NCBI GenBank assembly: GCA_020848545.1
Contig: JADLHZ010000044.1
Location: 310,001 to 374,000 of the forward strand
Direction: 5' to 3'
Length of the DNA stretch: 64,000 nt
Source of the DNA: Deltaproteobacteria bacterium
Lineage (GTDB): Bacteria > Myxococcota > JADLHZ01
The notes beneath the pieces were generated by a model. The model searched no databases and was not told the origin of the DNA. It saw only the letters and a list, made by a program, of their open reading frames with translations. Made by a program: the position numbers and the translations under genes. Positions within the stretch are counted from its first letter, which is position 1; the number at the start of each line of letters is the position of its first letter. Positions 22,699 through 60,020 of this stretch are shown one piece after another.

Positions 22699-24600
22699 TT
22701 AGGGACCGACGTCACCGTGTGTACGGATGAAATCGCCCAACGCATCGAGCGCCGGCGTCGTTCGCAGCATCGAATAGCTCGACGTCGGATCGATCAGCGT
22801 GAACTCGTTGCTCACGCCGGGCGCTTCGATCGCCCAGGGCAGAAAGCCCCAGTAGCTTCCGCCGTACGCGTTTGCGAGCATTGCGCTCGTCGCCTTCTCT
22901 TGCAGTACGATGTCGCGCGTGTGCGAGCCTTGGCCGCCTTCGCCGACGATCACACGGGCGCGCCGCTGCAACGACGTGTAGCTCGCGAGGGCGCCGTGGT
23001 CGTCGTACTCGTGATAGTCCAAGTGCGAAAAGCCGAGGCCCGAAAAGCGGCCCGCGCGCACGCTGTCTGCGCCGTGCCAGCCCGAGCCTGCCGACACGAA
23101 CACGCCCGGCGCCACGTTCTTCACGCCGGCGGCCGCCTCGCTCAAGAAGGAGCGCATGGCTTCCCAGCTCACGCCCGCGCCCCAGTTCCCGGTGTCTCCG
23201 GCAACGGCGCCTTCGGGCTCGTTCGCGAGGTCGATGCTCCAGACCCACGGGCTCGCGGTATAGCGCGCGACGAAGGGCAGCATCGCTTGATCGAGGAACG
23301 CCTTTCGCGCGGCGAGATCGGCGATGGGCGAAGGGCTCGTACACTCGCTCGTGTGGTGCGCGCCGAGCAGCATGAAGGTGACTTTGACGTCGTACTTCGG
23401 CAGGCGCGTGAAGACGAAGTCGTCGAAGTTCTTCCAGAAGGTCGGGTGCACGCCGGTGACGCGCTCGGCGGCGTCCTTCTCGAGGCCTTCGCAGCTCTCG
23501 AACACCCAGACCCGCAGCAGGCGAACGCCTAGTCCCTGCATCATCGCCAAGATCGCCTCGACGTGCGCCGGATCGTAGGCGACGCCCCAGGTCGGATGGT
23601 GGAACGAAGGTCCAAAGTCGTGGGCGTATTGGCCGTCGAGCCACGCGAGGTTCAAGCCGAGCACGAACTGCGCGACGAGCTCGATCTCATCCAAGTAGAG
23701 GACGCCAGCGCCGCTGGCTGAGAGCGTGAACGAGAGCTGCATGCCGCGCGCGTCGGGGGACGCTTCGATGCCGGCCGCGCTCAGCTCGAACGAGGTGGGT
23801 CCGAGGCTCCTGTGCGCGATGAGCCCGGTGCCGGCGACGTCTTTGTATGACGGCTGGCCGCCCGCGGTCGGTGTGAGAAAAGAGACACGTGAGGAAAGAT
23901 CTACATCGGCCTCGAGGCGCGCGAGGAAACGCACGCGCTCGACGTTCGTCACCGAGCGCGGCGGCGAAAACGGCAGCGTCACGCGCACGGTGTCGCCTGC
24001 CGATCCGGAGAACGCGACCCGCAGCGTGCCGTGACCCGCGAGCGTGGCGACCATGACGACGCTCGCGCTCGCGTTCGGCGACGTTTGGACGCTCATCGAC
24101 GCCTCGAAGTCGAAGCGCGCGCGCGGGGTCACCGTGCTCACGAGGATCGGCGCCGCGGTGAGGCTGGCGAAGGTGGCGGTGACGATGGTCGAGCGCGATC
24201 CGCCCGCCGCGGGGACGAAGCGGCCAGAAACGACGCTCCCGGCCGCCGGGTCGCGCACAGTCAAGGCAGCCTGCGCGCTCACGTCTTCGTTCGTGCCGTC
24301 CTCCCGCGTCGCGACGACCGTCAGCGGCAGCGGCTCGCTCGTCGTCAACACGTGCCGTCCCGCCGGCAGCAGCTTCAGCGCCGTGTACCCCGGCGACGGC
24401 ACCACCGAATTGGGACCCGGTCCCTTTTCGTTCGAAAGGGGACCGGGGAGACTCTCGGTCGAAAAGGGACCGGGGACGTTTTCGGTCGAAAAGGGACCGG
24501 GGAGACTCTCGGTGGCGCGCTCGGCGTCGCGCTCGCGGCTGTTCGGCTCGGGCGGCGCGGCGCAGGCGGCGAAGAGCACGAGGGCGAGGACGAGACGCAT
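22699..24600 (-). CDS. Lipoprotein glycoside hydrolase (GH5-like, mannanase type)
   Basis: 633 aa. The start is chosen at the Met giving a lipobox signal (MRLVLALVLFAAC). Residues ~20-55 are a repeated Pro-Gly-Pro-Phe-Ser-Thr-Glu linker encoded by copies of the GAAAAGGGACCGGGG element. Residues ~60-310 are beta-rich (Ig/CBM-like). The C-terminal ~310 residues form a TIM-barrel hydrolase: 'LNLAWLDGQYAHD', the acid/base site in 'DLANEPEGA', and the likely nucleophile in 'VIVGEGGQGS', as in GH5-type endo-mannanases. It is predicted to be anchored in the envelope and to act on a beta-linked polysaccharide; the exact substrate is not determinable. Confidence 0.85.
   Translation of the reverse strand: MRLVLALVLFAACAAPPEPNSRERDAERATESLPGPFSTENVPGPFSTESLPGPLSNEKGPGPNSVVPSPGYTALKLLPAGRHVLTTSEPLPLTVVATREDGTNEDVSAQAALTVRDPAAGSVVSGRFVPAAGGSRSTIVTATFASLTAAPILVSTVTPRARFDFEASMSVQTSPNASASVVMVATLAGHGTLRVAFSGSAGDTVRVTLPFSPPRSVTNVERVRFLARLEADVDLSSRVSFLTPTAGGQPSYKDVAGTGLIAHRSLGPTSFELSAAGIEASPDARGMQLSFTLSASGAGVLYLDEIELVAQFVLGLNLAWLDGQYAHDFGPSFHHPTWGVAYDPAHVEAILAMMQGLGVRLLRVWVFESCEGLEKDAAERVTGVHPTFWKNFDDFVFTRLPKYDVKVTFMLLGAHHTSECTSPSPIADLAARKAFLDQAMLPFVARYTASPWVWSIDLANEPEGAVAGDTGNWGAGVSWEAMRSFLSEAAAGVKNVAPGVFVSAGSGWHGADSVRAGRFSGLGFSHLDYHEYDDHGALASYTSLQRRARVIVGEGGQGSHTRDIVLQEKATSAMLANAYGGSYWGFLPWAIEAPGVSNEFTLIDPTSSYSMLRTTPALDALGDFIRTHGDVGP
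24416..24514 (+). repeat. Dispersed GAAAAGGGACCGGGG element, coding version (27-nt period)
   Basis: Units begin at 24434 (one variant base), 24461 and 24488, spaced 27 nt. An inverted 15-bp copy lies at 24416-24430, creating the palindrome GGGACC-C-GGTCCC at 24412-24424. All lie inside the glycoside-hydrolase lipoprotein and are read in frame as a Pro-Gly-Pro linker. Confidence 0.85.
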
Positions 24601-24712
24601 CGGGCCTCGGTTATCGGGCGTCGCGCGGCCGCTGTCTTCGGCGCATGCCTTGAATTGCGACGATCCGCCGGCACTTGTCGGTTCGCGCGGCATCGTCTAA
24701 GGAGCCGCCCCG

Positions 24713-25333
24713 ATGACCCTGAAATTTCGCGTCGTTGTGGCCGATCCGCCCTGGGCATTCTCCGACAAGCTCCGCATGTCCGATGTGAAGCGCGGCGCCG
24801 CGGCCAACTACCGCACGCTGACCGTCGACGACGTGGCCGCGCTGCCGGTCGCCGACTGGTGCTACAAGGACGCGTTGCTCGCGCTCTGGGTGCCGTCGAG
24901 CCTGCTCACGGACGGCATGCGCGTCATGGAGTCTTGGGGCTTCGTGCAAAAGCAGATCTACACCTGGGTGAAGCAAACGAAGAGCGGCGGCGTCGCCTTC
25001 GGCATGGGCCGCCAGTTTCGTGGGGCCACCGAGCACGCGCTCGTCGGCACGCGCGGCAGCCCGAAGCCGCAGTCGCGCTCGGAGCGCAACGTCGATCACT
25101 GGGTCGGCCTGCCGCACAGCAGGAAGCCCGAACAGCTGCAGAACCGCCTGGAGAAGATGTACCCGGACGGCCCGTACCTCGAGCTCTTCGCCCGCCGCGC
25201 GCGCGAGGGATGGACGTGCGTCGGCAACCAAGCGCCGGGCTACGAAGGCCTCGACATCCGCGACTGGCACCCCGCGTGGACGCCGGCCGCGAGCGCGCGC
25301 TCAGACGATCAAGAGATCGCCGCGCCGATCTGA
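24713..25333 (+). CDS. MT-A70 family adenine-N6 methyltransferase, orphan
   Basis: 206 aa. TAAGGAG a few bases upstream supports the start. The catalytic motif is Asp11-Pro-Pro-Trp14, followed by 'LALWVPSSLL' and 'KQIYTWVKQTKSGG', and 'GRQFRGATEHALVGTRG' as in MT-A70-type methylases that modify adenine in DNA (bacterial and phage members) or RNA. No restriction endonuclease or phage gene is nearby, so it is an orphan methylase. Its last 25 bp overlap the convergent feo gene. Confidence 0.9.
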   Translation: MTLKFRVVVADPPWAFSDKLRMSDVKRGAAANYRTLTVDDVAALPVADWCYKDALLALWVPSSLLTDGMRVMESWGFVQKQIYTWVKQTKSGGVAFGMGRQFRGATEHALVGTRGSPKPQSRSERNVDHWVGLPHSRKPEQLQNRLEKMYPDGPYLELFARRAREGWTCVGNQAPGYEGLDIRDWHPAWTPAASARSDDQEIAAPI

Positions 25334-27699
25334 TTGATCGCCAGCGCGACCACGTAGGCGAGCGCCGTCATATAAAGGAAGACGCCGGCGACGAAGCGCC
25401 ATGATCGCGTCTCGCGGCGGATCGTGGCGAGCGTGCTCATGCACTGGCACGCGAGCATGAAGAACGCGAGCAGCGCGAACCCGGTGCGCGGCGTGTAGAT
25501 CGGCCGGCCGTCTTTGCGCTTGGCGTTTTGCAGCGCGCTGACCAGCCCGGCCTGCTCCTGGTCTGCGTTCGCGGCGCCGTGAATCACGCCCATCGTCGCG
25601 ACGAACACTTCGCGCGCGGCGAAGCTGCCGATGAGGCCGATGCCGATGCGCCAATCGAAGCCGAGCGGCTCGATCACGGGCTCGATGGCGTGGCCGACGC
25701 GCCCGGCGATCGAGTGCTCGAGGCGTTGGCTCTCGGTCGCGCTCGGCTCGTCCATGCGTGGAAAGTGCAGGAGCAGCCACATCACCACGCTCAGCACGAC
25801 GATCGTGGTGCCGGCCGTCGTCAGGAACTCGCGCAGGCGCTGCCACACGGTGCGCAGCAGTGTGCGCATCACCGGCATGCGGTAAGGCGGTAGCTCGAGC
25901 ACGAGCGACGCGGAGTCGCCCGAGAACACCGTGCGGCCGATGAAGCTCGCCGCGAGCAGCGTTGTCACGGCTGACGCGACGTAGAGGCCGAGCAGGATGA
26001 TCGTACTCACCGGCATGCCGAGCCAGCGCATCGACGCCGGATAGAGCGTGGCGATGACGAGCGTGTAGACCGGCAGCCGCGCCGAGCAGCTCATCAGCGG
26101 CAACACCGCCATCGTCAGCAAGCGATCGCGGCGGTGCTCCAGCGTTCGCAGCGACATGATCGCCGGGACCGCGCACGCGTAGCCGCCAAGCATCGGCACG
26201 AACGCCTTGCCGTTGAGGCCCGCCAAGCGCATCAGCCGATCGATCATGAACGCGGCGCGCGACAAATAGCCGAACGCTTCGAGAAAGCTCATGAGGAAGA
26301 GCAGGAGCGCGATCTGCGGAACGAACATGAGGACCGTGCCGACGCCGACGACGAGGCCGTCGGCGACGAGGTCGGAGAGCCAATGCGCGGGGAGGGCAGA
26401 GCGCGCGCTGGCGGCGATCCACGCGAAGAGCGCCTCGATGCCGTCCATCATCGGCTGCGAAAGCGTGAAGAGCAGATTGAACGCGAGCGCGAGCACACAA
26501 AGGAGGGCGACGGCGCCCGTGAACGGATGGGTCAGCAGGCGATCGATCCGATCAGTGAACGAGCGCGCCGCACGCTCTGGGGCTCTGACGGCGCGCGCGA
26601 CGATGCGATCGACGAAGCCGTAGCGTGCGGCAGTGATCGTTGCCGCGAGATCATCGAGCTCGTCCATCGCGAAGTCGCCCGGAAGGGGCCTGCCGCGCGC
26701 TGCGGCTTCCGCGAGCCACGTCGCGAACGCGCGGCGGCGCGGGCCGAGATCGCGGCTGAGCTCGCCGGCGACGCGCATCACCAACGGGCCGAGCTCGTGA
26801 TCGATCGCGCCACCGAAGCTGACTTCACGTGTCGTTGAGCTGGCGATGGCACGCTCGAGAGCGGCGCGCAGATCGCCGAGGCCTTCGTGCTTCGTGGCCA
26901 CGGTGCGGATCACCTCGACGCCGAGCGCGTCTTGTAGGACGGCGGTGTCGATCTCGATGCCCTGCGCCCGCGCCTCGTCGCTCATGTTGAGCACACAGAC
27001 GACCGGCACGGAGAGCTCGATGACCGCGAGCGCGAGGTACAAGCTACGCGCAAGAGCCGTCGCGTCGAGCACGACGACGCAAGCATCGCAGCCTCGTTGT
27101 GGTGCGTGCGGCGAGAGGGCGCGGCCGAAGAGCTCGTACGCGGCGACGTCTTCGTCGGGAGAGCGACCGACGAGGCCGTAGCAGCCGGGGAGGTCGACGA
27201 GCGTCGCCTCCTGCGCCCCGATCGCGATCGCCCGCGCGCTGCGGGTGACGGTGATGCCCGGGTAGTTGCCGGTGGGTCGCGAGGCGCCGGAGAGCGCGTT
27301 GAACAAGGTCGACTTGCCGCAGTTCGGGTTGCCGACGAGGCCGATGACGGCGCCGTGGATCGAGCGTGGCGCTGTTGTCCCCTTCGCGATCGCGTAATCA
27401 GTCGGGGCCGTCCTGGCATCGTTCGTGATCGCGATCGCTGCCGCGTCGGTGCTCCGCAGGCTCAAGCGGTAGCCACGGAGCTCGACCTCGATCGGATCGC
27501 CAAACGGGGCGCGGCGGATGGCCGTGACCAAGGTGCCGGGGACGAAGCCGAGCTCCATGAGCCGTAAGCGCTCTGCCGCCGACCCGCCCCGTCGATGGTC
27601 GATTCGCTTCACGCGGCCGCTCGTGCCCGGAGCCAGCGCCGCGAGGGTCTCGGGCCGGCTTCGCCCGATCGTCCGGACCATGGCGGCGCCGTCTTGCAT
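25309..27699 (-). CDS. feoB: Ferrous iron transporter, FeoA-FeoB fusion
   Basis: 796 aa. Residues ~15-93 are a FeoA (SH3-like) domain ('LAPGTSGRVKRI...RLMELGFVPGT'). From ~113 follows the FeoB G-domain with G1 'GNPNCGKST' (123-131), G3 'DLPG' (169-172) and G4 'NMSD', then a C-terminal block of membrane helices with gate motifs ('PLMSCSARLPVY'). It imports Fe2+ across the inner membrane. A Fur-box-like palindrome lies 10 bp upstream of this ATG. No Shine-Dalgarno is seen; Met7 (27681) is an alternative start. Confidence 0.95.
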   Translation of the reverse strand: MQDGAAMVRTIGRSRPETLAALAPGTSGRVKRIDHRRGGSAAERLRLMELGFVPGTLVTAIRRAPFGDPIEVELRGYRLSLRSTDAAAIAITNDARTAPTDYAIAKGTTAPRSIHGAVIGLVGNPNCGKSTLFNALSGASRPTGNYPGITVTRSARAIAIGAQEATLVDLPGCYGLVGRSPDEDVAAYELFGRALSPHAPQRGCDACVVVLDATALARSLYLALAVIELSVPVVCVLNMSDEARAQGIEIDTAVLQDALGVEVIRTVATKHEGLGDLRAALERAIASSTTREVSFGGAIDHELGPLVMRVAGELSRDLGPRRRAFATWLAEAAARGRPLPGDFAMDELDDLAATITAARYGFVDRIVARAVRAPERAARSFTDRIDRLLTHPFTGAVALLCVLALAFNLLFTLSQPMMDGIEALFAWIAASARSALPAHWLSDLVADGLVVGVGTVLMFVPQIALLLFLMSFLEAFGYLSRAAFMIDRLMRLAGLNGKAFVPMLGGYACAVPAIMSLRTLEHRRDRLLTMAVLPLMSCSARLPVYTLVIATLYPASMRWLGMPVSTIILLGLYVASAVTTLLAASFIGRTVFSGDSASLVLELPPYRMPVMRTLLRTVWQRLREFLTTAGTTIVVLSVVMWLLLHFPRMDEPSATESQRLEHSIAGRVGHAIEPVIEPLGFDWRIGIGLIGSFAAREVFVATMGVIHGAANADQEQAGLVSALQNAKRKDGRPIYTPRTGFALLAFFMLACQCMSTLATIRRETRSWRFVAGVFLYMTALAYVVALAINQIGAAIS

Positions 27700-27708
27700 C
27701 TGTGAAAA

Positions 27709-27723
27709 TGAATATCATATTCA
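27709..27723. promoter_or_regulatory. Fur-box-like operator for feoAB
   Basis: TGAATAT-C-ATATTCA is a perfect 7-1-7 inverted repeat. The Fur consensus is 7-1-7 TGATAAT-n-ATTATCA; five of seven bases match in each arm. Location immediately upstream of a ferrous iron transporter makes Fur repression by iron the natural inference. Confidence 0.75.
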
Positions 27724-27741
27724 ACAACCCCCCGCAACCAC

Positions 27742-27900
27742 GAAAAGGGACGAAAAGGGACCGGGGAAGGATTGGCGAAAAGGGACCGGGGAAGAATTCG
27801 TGAAAAGGGACCGGGGAAGGATTGGCGAAAAGGGACCGGGGAAGAATTCGTGAAAAGGGACCGGGGAGGAATGTTCCCGGGGAGGAATGTTCCCCGGGAG
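27742..27900 (+). repeat. Tandem array of GAAAAGGGACCGGGG element (25-nt period)
   Basis: Five full units start at 27752, 27777, 27802, 27827 and 27852, exactly 25 nt apart, after a truncated unit at 27742. The 10-nt tails alternate (AAGGATTGGC, then AAGAATTCGT, twice), giving a 50-nt higher-order repeat. A 16-nt tandem duplication (27861-27876 and 27877-27892) and degenerate remnants follow. Confidence 0.92.
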
Positions 27901-28074
27901 GGATTTCCGGGGAGGGTTGTCGACTGTTGGCGGCGAAAGCGAGTCATTTGGCGCCAAGTGTCACGCGTCGGTCCCGCGCGCGGTAGCGATAACCGACAGC
28001 GCACGGGCAGAGGGTGCCCCCACGAACTGCGGCGAACAGCAAATTCGCCGCCTCGAACGTATCGGAGTGACACG

Positions 28075-31000
28075 ATGGCGATTCAATTCCCACTGAACGG
28101 ACAAGCCCGCCTCTCGCAACAAGACCTCGACGCGTACACGAAAGAGCTCGCCAAGCAGCCGAAGCAGCTCGCCGTCCAGGAGCTGCAGAAGCTCATCGAC
28201 GCCGGCGAAGCACAGCTCCCTGAAGGCTCCGGCGCGAAGCTGCGCGACATGCAGTGGGCGCTGCAGAACGACGCGTGGGATCCGACGCAGCAAACGAGCG
28301 GCGTCAAGCGCCCGGCGCCGGCGGCGGTGAGCGAGATCCGCGTCGAGCGCGAACGTTCGATGGACGGCACCCAGGTCGCGCAACAGCTGCGCCTCGTCGT
28401 GCAAGGTCGCGCGGAGCCTGGGACGGCGTACGAGATCGTCAACTTGAGCCGCGGTGGCACGCCACTCGCTTCGGGCGCCGTCGCGGCCGATGGCTCGTTC
28501 AACTACGAGGGCTTGTTGCAGCCGTTGTTCTTCAACGAGCAGATCGGCGTGCGCATTAGGAACCAAAGCACCGGCGCGCGCTCCGAAACCATCACGCAGC
28601 TGCCGAAGTCGATCGAAGTGCAGGTGAAGGGGCAAGCGCGCGAGTCGGTCGAGCTCAAGATCGCGCAGCGTCAAGAGTCGCCGTTCGTGCAGCAGAGCTT
28701 GATTCAATCGACGCAAAAGATCGCGACCGCGGATGCGCCGGCCGGCATCGCGCTCGCGGGTAAAGCGGGCTCCGTCCCGGCGGGCGCCGAGCTGCAAGTG
28801 ATCCTCGGCGACAAGGTGCAGACCGCGCGCGCGATGCTCGACGGCTCGTTCATCTTCGACGTGAAAGGCATCACGCCCGGCCAGCAAGTCACGCTGAACG
28901 TCATCGACGGCGGCCAAGTGACGACGCAGCAGTACAACACGGTCGCGGTGCGCTTCGACACGAGCGGCTTCACGGCGTCGACGCAAGGCGCGCCCTACGA
29001 TCGCCTGCAGAAGGGCGTGAAGGATCCCGCCGGCCCGTTCCTGCGTTTCGGCGGGGGAAATGTCGATCCCGGCAGCATCGTCACCGTCACGAACTATACG
29101 ACCGGCGCGAAGTTTCAGGCGGTCGCCGACAAGGATGGCCGCATCGAGCTCGAGATCTCGGGCGTGCACACCGGTGATGCGCTCGGCTTCGAGTGCAAAG
29201 ACGCTGCTGGCAATCTGTCGCCGAACGCGGTGCAGAACTGGCCGGTCCCTGGCGCCGGCAGTGAGAACGCGCGCTTGAAGCAGCTGCTCTGCGCGCAGAA
29301 CCTGCTGACCGAGAACGTGGCCGAGCTCTCGACGTTGATTCACAAGATGCCGACGTCGATCCACCGAAAGCTCGTCGAAGACTTCCTCGCCGGTCCTGCC
29401 GCGAAAGTCGTGCGCGACGCGGCGGATCTGCAGTCGTTGAAGAAGGCCTTCGCCGAGGCGTACTCCGGCAAGAACGACATCGTCACGAACACCTCGAACC
29501 CGGCGCCGAAGGAACCGATCGTCGTCGGCGCGCGCGTGATCAAGCCGCGCATCATGGACCAAGGCAGCCCCGCCGGCCGCGATCCGATCGAAGTCGAAGG
29601 CAAGGCCGAGCCGTTCTCGCGCGTCGAGATCCGGAACGCGAGCATGCCGGGCGCGCCGGTCATCGGCACGATCCAGGCCGACAAGAACGGCAACTTCAAG
29701 TTCATCTCGCGCGACGAGTCGAAGTTCCTCCACGGCGATCAGCTCTACGTGCGCTCGATCGACCAGGGTGGCGCGCAGAGCACCGACGCGCTGGCGAAGA
29801 CCTGCGCCTACGAGCTGCAGATCTGGACCGTTCAGCCGCGCGAAGTCCTCGTCGAGCTGCCGCACGCGACCGACACGCGGCCGCCGTTTCTCGACATGAG
29901 CAAGACGAAGTCTGAGTCGAAGCCGATCGGACCGAAGGACAAGGAGCAGGTTCACACGATCAACGGCGCGCCTGGCAGCTCGGAGCCGAACGCGATCGTC
30001 CGCGTGACGAACCAACGCGGCAAGGTCTTCGAAGCGGCGACGAACAAGGACGGCTCGTTCCAACTGAACGTTGGCGAGATTACACCGGGCGAGACGCTGA
30101 CGGCGATGGTGATCGACACGAACGGCATCACCACGCAGCAGATGTTCCAAACGCCGGCCTTGCGCTTCGACTCTGGGAAGCTGTTGTCGACATCGAACGG
30201 CGTGCCGTTCCAGCGCTTCGACGGCAAGGGCGCGCCCGACAGCGACGGTCCGTTCCTGCGCTTCGCGGCCGAAGGCGCCGTCAATCCGCACGCAAGCGTC
30301 AAAGTGACGAACAACTCGACCGGCGAGAGCTTCACCGTCACGGCGAGCGAGTCCGGCGCGCTCGACTTCGAGGCGCGGCGCGTTCACGCCGGTGACTCTT
30401 TGTCGTTCGTCGTCACCGATCCGGCGGGAAACGTGGCGCCGAACGCGATCGATAACTACGTCGTCCCCGGGACGCCGCAGTGGACGGCTGACGTGCAAGC
30501 GCTCGAGTGCCAGCACAACTTCGCGCCGGAGGACGTGCAGAAGGCGCTGACGATCATGGCGAAGGCGCCGACCGCAGCCAACCGGGCCGCGTTCGAGTCG
30601 ATGCTGAAGCGGCCGGAGGCGTTCCTCACCAAGGGCGACTTCGAGAAGCTGAAAGAGGCCTTCGTCGGCGCCTACGCCGCGCCGAACAACGTGCGCAACG
30701 CCGCCGAGAACCCGGCCCCGAAGCCGCCGATCGTGCTCGACGCCGACATCATCAAGCCGCGCATCATGGACCAGGGCAGCGCCGCCAACCGCGATCCGCT
30801 CGAAGTGCGCGGCAAGGCCGAGCCGTACACGACGATCGAGATCCGGAACGCGAGCCAGCCGGGCTACCCGGTGATCGGCAGTGTGCGCACCGACAAGAAC
30901 GGCAACTTCGCCTTCACCTCGCGCGACGAGTCGAAGTTCCTGCACGGCGATCAGATCATCCTGCGCGCCACGGACCAAGGCGGCGCGTCGAGCGAAGCGA

Positions 31001-34964: not shown

Positions 34965-36329
34965 ATGTCGCGCCACTTCGCGTTCGTGTTCCTCGTGGTG
35001 ATCGTGCACGGCCCAAGCGCCCACGCGTTCAACGTCCTCGACAAGGCAGCCCGCCAACAGAACCTCATCGACTACATGGCGAGCCGCAGCGACCTGACGA
35101 AGGCGGAGAAGGCGACGTGGGAAAAAGCGTTGCGCCTGGTCTTCGGCGGCCAAGCGCTGCGACCAGGCGACGACGAGGGCATCACGGCGGCCAAGAGCGT
35201 CCTCTCGTTCGGGCTCTTTCACCGCTTGGACGCGATGCTCGTCGTGCAGGCCGCCTACGACGCGAAGAACGACGTCTACGCGTGGGTGCCGCCGCCGGTC
35301 GCGATCAAGTATCAAGCGCTCGCGCTGCAAGGGAAGAAGCCCAAAGAGTCGGCGCGCCTCCTCGCCTTCGAGTTCCCAAAGTACTTCGACGAAGAACTCG
35401 CGCCCGAGATGATCCAGTGGTGGACCGAGCAGCTCAAAAGCGGCAAGGTCAACCCCGACGAAGAGCCGCGGATGCGCCGCCAGCTCGCCGAGACGCAGAA
35501 GAAGATGAAGCCCCGCCTCCGCCAGCTCGCGTACGAGGGTGCCGAGCTCAAGGCGATGGTCGATCACAAGCGCGCGAAGCCGCAGCAAGTGGCGGCCTCG
35601 CTCGACGACCTCGCGAACGAGATCGAAGACAGCTTGCCCGGCCAGGCGGCGACCGGCGGCGGGCAGCTCAACTACTATGATCTCTACGCGCGCCTTTCGA
35701 AGGAGCTCGGCTTGAAGGTGGAGCCGCCGCCCGAACCGGAGACGATGGCGCAGCCCGAGCCCGAGGTCGCGAGCGAGCCTGAGGCCGAGCCTGAGCCGCC
35801 GCCGAAGCCTGAGCCGCGCGCGCAGCCGAAGCCCGAACCGAAAGCGCAGCCGAAGCCCGAACCGAAGGCGGCCACGCCCGCAGCGCCGGCGCCGGCCGGC
35901 GGCATGAGGCCGCCACCGATGGCGGGCGAGCGGCTGTGCTCAGTCTACAACGGCTGGCAGTCCGTGTGGGCCGGCGCCGTCAGCAAGTGGATCGGGACGC
36001 CGTACCTCTTCGGCGGCGTCGACAAGAAGGGCATCGACTGCTCGGCGTTCTCGCGCGAGGTTTTCCGCGACACCGTGCGCGTCGAGCTGCCGCGCGTCAG
36101 CGGCGATCAGTTCCGCACCGGCATCGCGATCGAGAAATCACAGCTGAAGAAGGGCGACCTCGTATTCTTCGACACGCTCGAGCGAGGCCGTATCACGCAC
36201 GTGGCGGTGTTCGACGGCGAAGGCCTCGTCGCCCACGCGACCTCGAGCCGCGGTGTGACGAAAGAGAAGCTCGAGAACCGCTGGCTGCAGCGCGCCTATC
36301 GTGGTTGCCGGCGCTTGCTGCAGCAGTAG
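34965..36329 (+). CDS. Secreted NlpC/P60 peptidoglycan endopeptidase
   Basis: 454 aa. The start is the Met that begins a signal peptide ending 'SAHA'. Residues ~25-235 are a helical N-terminal domain. A Pro/Glu/Lys-rich linker (repeated 'PKPEPKAQ') spans ~250-305. The C-terminal NlpC/P60 domain has catalytic Cys359 in 'GIDCSAF', His412 in 'ITHVAVF' and His424 in 'LVAHATSS', with 'YLFGGVDKKG' before. It cleaves peptide stems in the cell wall. Its stop is 2 bp from the stop of the convergent amidohydrolase gene. Confidence 0.93.
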   Translation: MSRHFAFVFLVVIVHGPSAHAFNVLDKAARQQNLIDYMASRSDLTKAEKATWEKALRLVFGGQALRPGDDEGITAAKSVLSFGLFHRLDAMLVVQAAYDAKNDVYAWVPPPVAIKYQALALQGKKPKESARLLAFEFPKYFDEELAPEMIQWWTEQLKSGKVNPDEEPRMRRQLAETQKKMKPRLRQLAYEGAELKAMVDHKRAKPQQVAASLDDLANEIEDSLPGQAATGGGQLNYYDLYARLSKELGLKVEPPPEPETMAQPEPEVASEPEAEPEPPPKPEPRAQPKPEPKAQPKPEPKAATPAAPAPAGGMRPPPMAGERLCSVYNGWQSVWAGAVSKWIGTPYLFGGVDKKGIDCSAFSREVFRDTVRVELPRVSGDQFRTGIAIEKSQLKKGDLVFFDTLERGRITHVAVFDGEGLVAHATSSRGVTKEKLENRWLQRAYRGCRRLLQQ

Positions 36330-43619: not shown

Positions 43620-43632
43620 GCCTTGGAGTGTA

Positions 43633-43647
43633 CCCGGTCCCTTTTCG
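43633..43647 (-). repeat. Single inverted copy of the dispersed GAAAAGGGACCGGG element
   Basis: CCCGGTCCCTTTTCG is identical to the inverted copy at 24416-24430. It lies in the 52-bp gap between the start of the giant lipoprotein gene and the stop of the aminotransferase gene, so it is in the leader of the lipoprotein mRNA or its promoter. Confidence 0.8.
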
Positions 43648-53380: not shown

Positions 53381-53445
53381 GAAAAGGGACCGGGGAGGGA
53401 TTCGCGAAAAGGGACCGGGGAGCGCGCTACTGGGGAGCGCGCTAC
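53381..53445 (+). repeat. Two GAAAAGGGACCGGGG units plus a 14-bp duplication at a stop codon
   Basis: Units begin at 53381 and 53406, again exactly 25 nt apart. GGGGAGCGCGCTAC follows twice (53417-53430 and 53432-53445); the second copy contains the stop codon of the GT4 gene. The element therefore sits at the 3' end of that gene and 100 bp upstream of the dihydropyrimidinase start. Confidence 0.88.
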
Positions 53446-59995: not shown

Positions 59996-60020
59996 GAAAA
60001 AGGTCCCTGGGACCATTTTC
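59996..60020 (-). terminator. Hairpin with U-tract after the methyltransferase gene
   Basis: The minus strand reads GGTCCC-A-GGGACC followed by TTTTTC, directly after the stop codon (60020-60022). The surrounding A and T runs extend the stem to twelve paired positions with one mismatch. It is a plausible intrinsic terminator, placed only 18 bp before the GTG of the TPR gene. Confidence 0.6.

Follow-up and report, generated by a model that had tools for sequence, protein, structure and literature searches.

The array at 27742-27922 of the window, the 64,000-nt stretch analysed here (C44:310001-374000, from a genome of 8.0 Mb in 163 contigs), has divergent genes on its two sides, feoAB at a distance of 52 bp and an Ig-repeat gene at 208 bp. 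It is built on the 15-mer GAAAAGGGACCGGGG, and REP-B is used here as a working name for the 25-nt repeat family containing this motif. Nine exact copies are present in the window (24461, 24488, 27752, 27777, 27802, 27827, 27852, 53381 and 53406), plus three one-mismatch variants, with 24415 and 43632 inverted, against a chance expectation of 0.06 with up to two mismatches. Recounting recovered all of the copies, variants and inverted copies listed in an earlier note on this DNA, which had already placed the motif beyond chance. Its description of the main array is also borne out: the five cores are spaced at exactly 25 nt, alternating tails give a 50-nt higher-order repeat (100% identity across 2.3 copies), and a 16-nt tail segment is duplicated (27861-27876 = 27877-27892; Table 1).

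Table 1 Repeat features in the window, with one REP-A copy shown for contrast only
Feature	Position	Strand	Remarks
Left half-unit GAAAAGGGAC	27742..27751	+	upstream edge of main array
Five head-to-tail units	27752..27866	+	period 25; alternating tails make a 50-nt super-repeat
Right half-unit ladder	27861..27922	+	CCGGGGAGGAATGTTC twice, then two diverged copies
Intragenic array	24415..24513	+	one inverted near-palindromic unit (24415) and three direct units, period 27
Two direct units	53381..53443	+	25-nt spacing, then 15-nt right-end duplication; intergenic
Lone variant core GAAAAGGGACCGGGT	43632..43646	-	
REP-A copy (AAAAGGTCCCTGGGACC)	59998..60018	.	family of the second RAYT

The intragenic array is in frame within gene 22699-24693 (-), directly after a lipoprotein-like signal. 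Just upstream of feoAB, 18 bp before the start of the main array, is a palindrome, TGAATATCATATTCA (27709-27723), likely to be a metal-regulator operator, and GC-rich short tandem repeats (12-24 nt) are found in a coding region at 35775-35870. A terminator or promoter reading of the main array was rejected, neither being detected at 27500-28200, as was an RNA element, since an Rfam scan of 24000-28300 returned nothing above one chance-level match. A G-quadruplex was also rejected: the sole short-loop match falls in the right-hand ladder, outside the repeated unit.

A search for the 15-mer in the whole genome and in relatives, as proposed in the earlier note, identified 248 dispersed exact copies (140 on the plus strand, 108 on the minus; none with a reversed-pattern control), including 108 direct tandem pairs, and found the motif nearly absent elsewhere: 194 further genomes from the phylum had no tandem pair, and of 57 relatives searched one had the 15-mer, as a single stray copy. 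About 130 clusters are estimated for the genome, extrapolating from the sampled half. A 17-mer with up to three mismatches reaches only 325 sites (11 for the control), so most copies are exact, and the mismatch spectrum in 866 kb is correspondingly steep, with 112 exact matches, eight with one mismatch, six with two and 25 with three (control: 0, 0, 2 and 12). Assembly error is implausible and was rejected because the 248 copies are spread over many contigs, in arrays with different tails. A phage origin was rejected as well, the tandem motif being absent from IMG/VR, and so was spread to other taxa: in a scan of 257 Gb (genome_contigs) that possibly leaves out this bacterium's own genome, the 17-mer matches listed are single copies only, in about the number expected by chance.

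Analysis of the loci of the first 100 copies gives a unit of ~25 nt, consisting of CGAAAAGGGACCGGGGA, 2-3 variable bases and (T)TTCG, in which a 16-nt core is almost invariant and the tail varies; the unit ends in short inverted sequences (CGAAA/TTTCG). Typical arrays are direct, head-to-tail runs of 2-5 units, one per 23-28 nt; neighbouring units form 59 direct pairs versus seven inverted pairs, and most direct spacings spread evenly across 23-28 nt, without helical phasing. Adjacent units in 30 arrays differ at 1.5% of core sites and at 41% of tail sites; tails from different arrays differ at 54% of sites, and random DNA would give 73%. Core-based searching biases this comparison, but the 866-kb mismatch spectrum shows that the sharpness of the core is real. 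Array edges are also directional, the left half GAAAAGGG being found within 40 nt upstream of 8/50 clusters and downstream of none (0/50), and the right half, CGGGGA, downstream of 8/50 and upstream of 2/50. The ssDNA folding energies of common units, -0.3 to -3.5 kcal/mol, do not surpass those of shuffled sequences, whereas an idealised palindrome modelled on rare near-palindromic variants reaches -10.7 kcal/mol and a close inverted pair forms a stable hairpin. A replication-strand bias was considered and set aside, as the correlation of orientation with local GC skew is weak (p = 0.017; Fisher p = 0.04) and, since the motif itself is G-rich, no more than suggestive.

The 50-nt dimer of the window array and four near-identical 24-nt units in C32 (L044 1984) are local duplications. 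The local amplification suggested in the earlier note is thus correct for the alternating 50-nt pattern but is not a full account of array growth, as neighbouring tails differ although the core is shared.

The assessment of gene context, by a home-made gene caller (coding density 0.89), covered the window, C46 and the first 100 copies, which lie on contigs 4-44. Clusters are intergenic in 38/52 cases (binomial p = 5e-26). Copies inserted in frame within genes encode EKGPG, RKGTG or KRDRG, depending on the reading frame, mostly in linkers and N-termini. Since the same DNA core is read in different frames, it is the DNA, not the peptide, that is kept.

No match to PF01797 (Y1_Tnp) was found in the window, in agreement with the earlier statement that it contains no IS200/RAYT-type transposase, and the four matches in the genome are all on contigs other than the window's. 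One is the N-terminal half of a gene (RAYT-B) at the start of C25 (424-128, minus strand; 39.9 bits, cut-off 23), carrying an HWH motif and preceded by four direct REP-B cores (545-632), 120-208 bp upstream of its start. The C-terminal half, with the catalytic-type tyrosine in RYVERN, is at the start of C46 (125-497, plus strand), and one REP-B core, inverted relative to the upstream four, lies 29 bp past its stop. The two halves abut opposite ends of one multicopy IS, itself unassembled between them. Both of these junctions carry CTAT, whereas CTAG was seen at all the remaining junctions inspected (eight left, ten right); restored without the IS, the site forms a continuous ORF of 221 aa. The CTAT duplication and the continuous reading frame across C25 and C46 suggest that the sole REP-B-flanked RAYT in the genome has been split by this IS; no second copy of RAYT-B was found in the genome. 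Many breaks in the assembly (contig ends L010, L070-L077, L170-L180) fall at copies of the same IS, which prefers CTAG as its target. Downstream of RAYT-B, a partial inverted unit (CTCCCCGGTCC) precedes a full unit (L083 490-550), and this REPIN-like pair beside the gene folds as a -12.5 kcal/mol hairpin.

RAYT-B appears, from its Y1_Tnp domain, HUH motif and catalytic Tyr, to be a RAYT-like Y1 (HuH) transposase. Its only NCBIfam match is NF047646 (58.8 bits, E = 5e-16), below the curated cut-off of 80. No REP-B copy lies within 1.5 kb of the PF01797 matches at C7 and C90. The earlier note had held that many intergenic copies and one enzyme flanked by the motif would support a REP family, and both are present here, RAYT-B being flanked on both sides.

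The genome also carries an intact second RAYT (RAYT-A; 229 aa, C18:35300-35986), 35% identical to RAYT-B, which matches TnpA-REP (PDB 4er8; E = 5e-7) and also falls below the NF047646 cut-off. Its flanks carry another palindrome, AAAAAGGTCCC[A/T]GGGACCTATTTT (REP-A; AAAAGGTCCCNGGGACC), which is matched 137 times across the two strands, with perfect palindromes counted twice, and forms loosely spaced doublets 29-91 bp apart. GGGACC and an A-tract are common to REP-A and REP-B. RAYT-A with its own REP family, a hairpin-type pair, is an internal positive control in the same genome. The nearest relative of RAYT-B, in G017, shares 42% identity with it in the search and 39% when aligned, and inverted repeats with a tandem half unit (GAAAAAGGGGTCACG then GAAAAAGGGGTCAGGTACC) lie on either side of its gene; this motif occurs exactly twice in the G017 genome, both times flanking the RAYT. 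NHWH and RYVERN are conserved in an alignment of RAYT-B, RAYT-A and the G017 protein. Another relative, L101, has GGGGACAG-type flanks.

Published REPs are mostly found in inverted pairs, and the RAYTs assayed so far need a hairpin. REP-B shares with REP/BIME/REPIN systems a high copy number, extragenic bias and a RAYT between two inverted copies (PMC2817692, PMC3116915), but differs in features that define those classes. They have a GTAG head, a hairpin and inverted doublets, while in 119 aligned REP-B copies no GTAG or GTGG tag is conserved in the 12 nt before the core or the 15 nt after it, common units are neither palindromic nor stable as single-unit hairpins, and direct pairs dominate where an inverted-pair mobile unit would be expected. 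Tandem REP arrays have been reported in P. fluorescens SBW25 (PMC2817692, PMC3116915), although REP doublets there are 71 and 110 bp and the REP-B period is 23-28 nt. Rickettsial palindromic elements resemble REP-B in being small in-frame insertions within genes, but the families discussed in PMC3733652 are CGTC-tagged palindromes with no flanked RAYT; REP-B lacks the CGTC tag and has a cognate RAYT.

Closest are TIRYTs/TIRtrons, in which a Y1 RAYT-like gene has inverted, non-GTAG flanks and the repeats are dispersed, single or clustered (PMC3733652). RAYT-B, with its halves joined as proposed above, would likewise lie between inverted repeat copies. Some TIRs of this class contain GGGGWSAS (Di Nocera et al. 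2013, PMC3733652), a motif fitted fully by the G017 (GGGGTCAG) and L101 flanks and approached by REP-B, where most copies have GGGGAS and position 7 is usually not A. TIRYT families are described as moderately abundant (PMC3733652), whereas REP-B is abundant, usually arranged as direct tandem arrays, and has an enzyme gene interrupted by an IS. Because the tag, hairpin and inverted-pair tests for REP/REPIN failed, REP-B is placed with the TIRYT repeats, as a RAYT/TIRYT-associated mobile repeat that is a variant of that kind and not a canonical REP or REPIN. The earlier reading of a REP-type or other mobile repeat therefore stands as regards mobility (dispersed, intergenic copies flanking RAYT-B) but not as regards REP identity in the strict sense.

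The explanation favoured here, with a probability of roughly 0.8, is that REP-B is a miniature non-autonomous mobile repeat derived from the terminal repeats of RAYT-B, a RAYT/TIRYT-type Y1 HuH single-strand transposase. In vitro, RAYTs bind REP sequences as single strands, cleave next to them and then join strands again (PMC8266576). RAYT-B would similarly recognise the REP-B unit as ssDNA, cut there and rejoin it elsewhere, a model supported by the repeats flanking RAYT-B, the dispersed copies and the insertions within genes. If rejoining took place preferentially beside a resident unit, units would accumulate head to tail with different tails and like cores, a pattern that simple tandem duplication cannot give. 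Slippage or unequal exchange would then have extended the arrays by half a unit (~10-17 nt), one unit (23-28 nt) or two units (50 nt, seen in the window). With RAYT-B split by the IS, new movement of REP-B would have stopped in the sequenced strain, unless RAYT-A acts in trans. Counting against this explanation are the absence from REP-B of an ssDNA fold above shuffles and of a GTAG or CGTC tag, the predominance of direct over inverted pairs (59 to 7) and the NF047646 score of RAYT-B (58.8 bits for a cut-off of 80). The sharpness of the core with no intact transposase could instead reflect selection on the core. In a bolder version, advanced tentatively and judged unlikely as a whole, the non-palindromic 16-nt core would be both the mobile and the target-site unit, additions beside residents would build directional arrays, and use by the cell would have kept the core homogeneous after loss of the enzyme.

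Selection is also central to an improbable alternative, in which the arrays would be sites for a host DNA-binding protein (nucleoid protein, regulator or gyrase-type target) that recognises the core and leaves the tails as free spacers. Such a role would fit the near-invariant core with variable tails, the steep fall of the mismatch spectrum after exact copies (112, 8, 6 and 25; control 0, 0, 2 and 12) and the position of the window array in the divergent feoAB/Ig-repeat-gene promoter region, and would explain conservation of the core past enzyme loss. As an origin it is less likely because the spacing, even across 23-28 nt, has no helical phasing and genes contain copies read in several frames, in parts encoding linkers and N-termini; in addition, the genes neighbouring REP-B are unrelated and the repeat flanks a transposase gene in inverted orientation. 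Use by a host protein could be a later adoption of a mobile repeat.

It is very unlikely that RAYT-A, rather than RAYT-B, mobilises REP-B in trans, with the split RAYT-B a passenger that carries the repeat by chance. RAYT-A is intact and related to RAYT-B, and the GGGACC and A-tract shared by the two repeat families would suit such a role, but RAYT-A has on its flanks a distinct palindrome that forms a large population of its own, REP-B is found on both sides of RAYT-B, and the published pattern pairs each REP class with one RAYT (PMC3116915). A plain minisatellite, arising by slippage and spread by chance recombination without a transposase, is scarcely credible: it would account for the clear local duplications in the window and C32 and for the half-unit ladders at array edges, but not for ~130 dispersed sites on both strands, many with single copies, nor for units of one array that share a core yet differ in tail, as slippage does not disperse sequence and copies tails along with cores.

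RAYTs are known mostly through hairpin-forming REPs. REP-B mostly forms directional tandem arrays, frozen in the core and free in the tails, and the matching enzyme, broken by an IS, is identified, making two questions testable: how REP clusters grow, and whether a population of REPs lasts after loss of its transposase. The in-frame copies also show that the repeats alter proteins that serve DNA recombination, DNA repair and polyamine synthesis. In a XerD-like recombinase (L049 1803-2807, minus strand), a segment of 33 aa, compared with 11 aa in E. coli XerD, coincides exactly with a three-unit REP-B array, which adds ~22 residues inside the catalytic domain. In LigD one unit separates the ligase and polymerase domains, and SpeD has one at its N-terminus. 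One unit also lies at the domain junction of a protein in which topoisomerase III and a RecQ-type helicase are fused in a single chain (L017 382-4011, plus strand).
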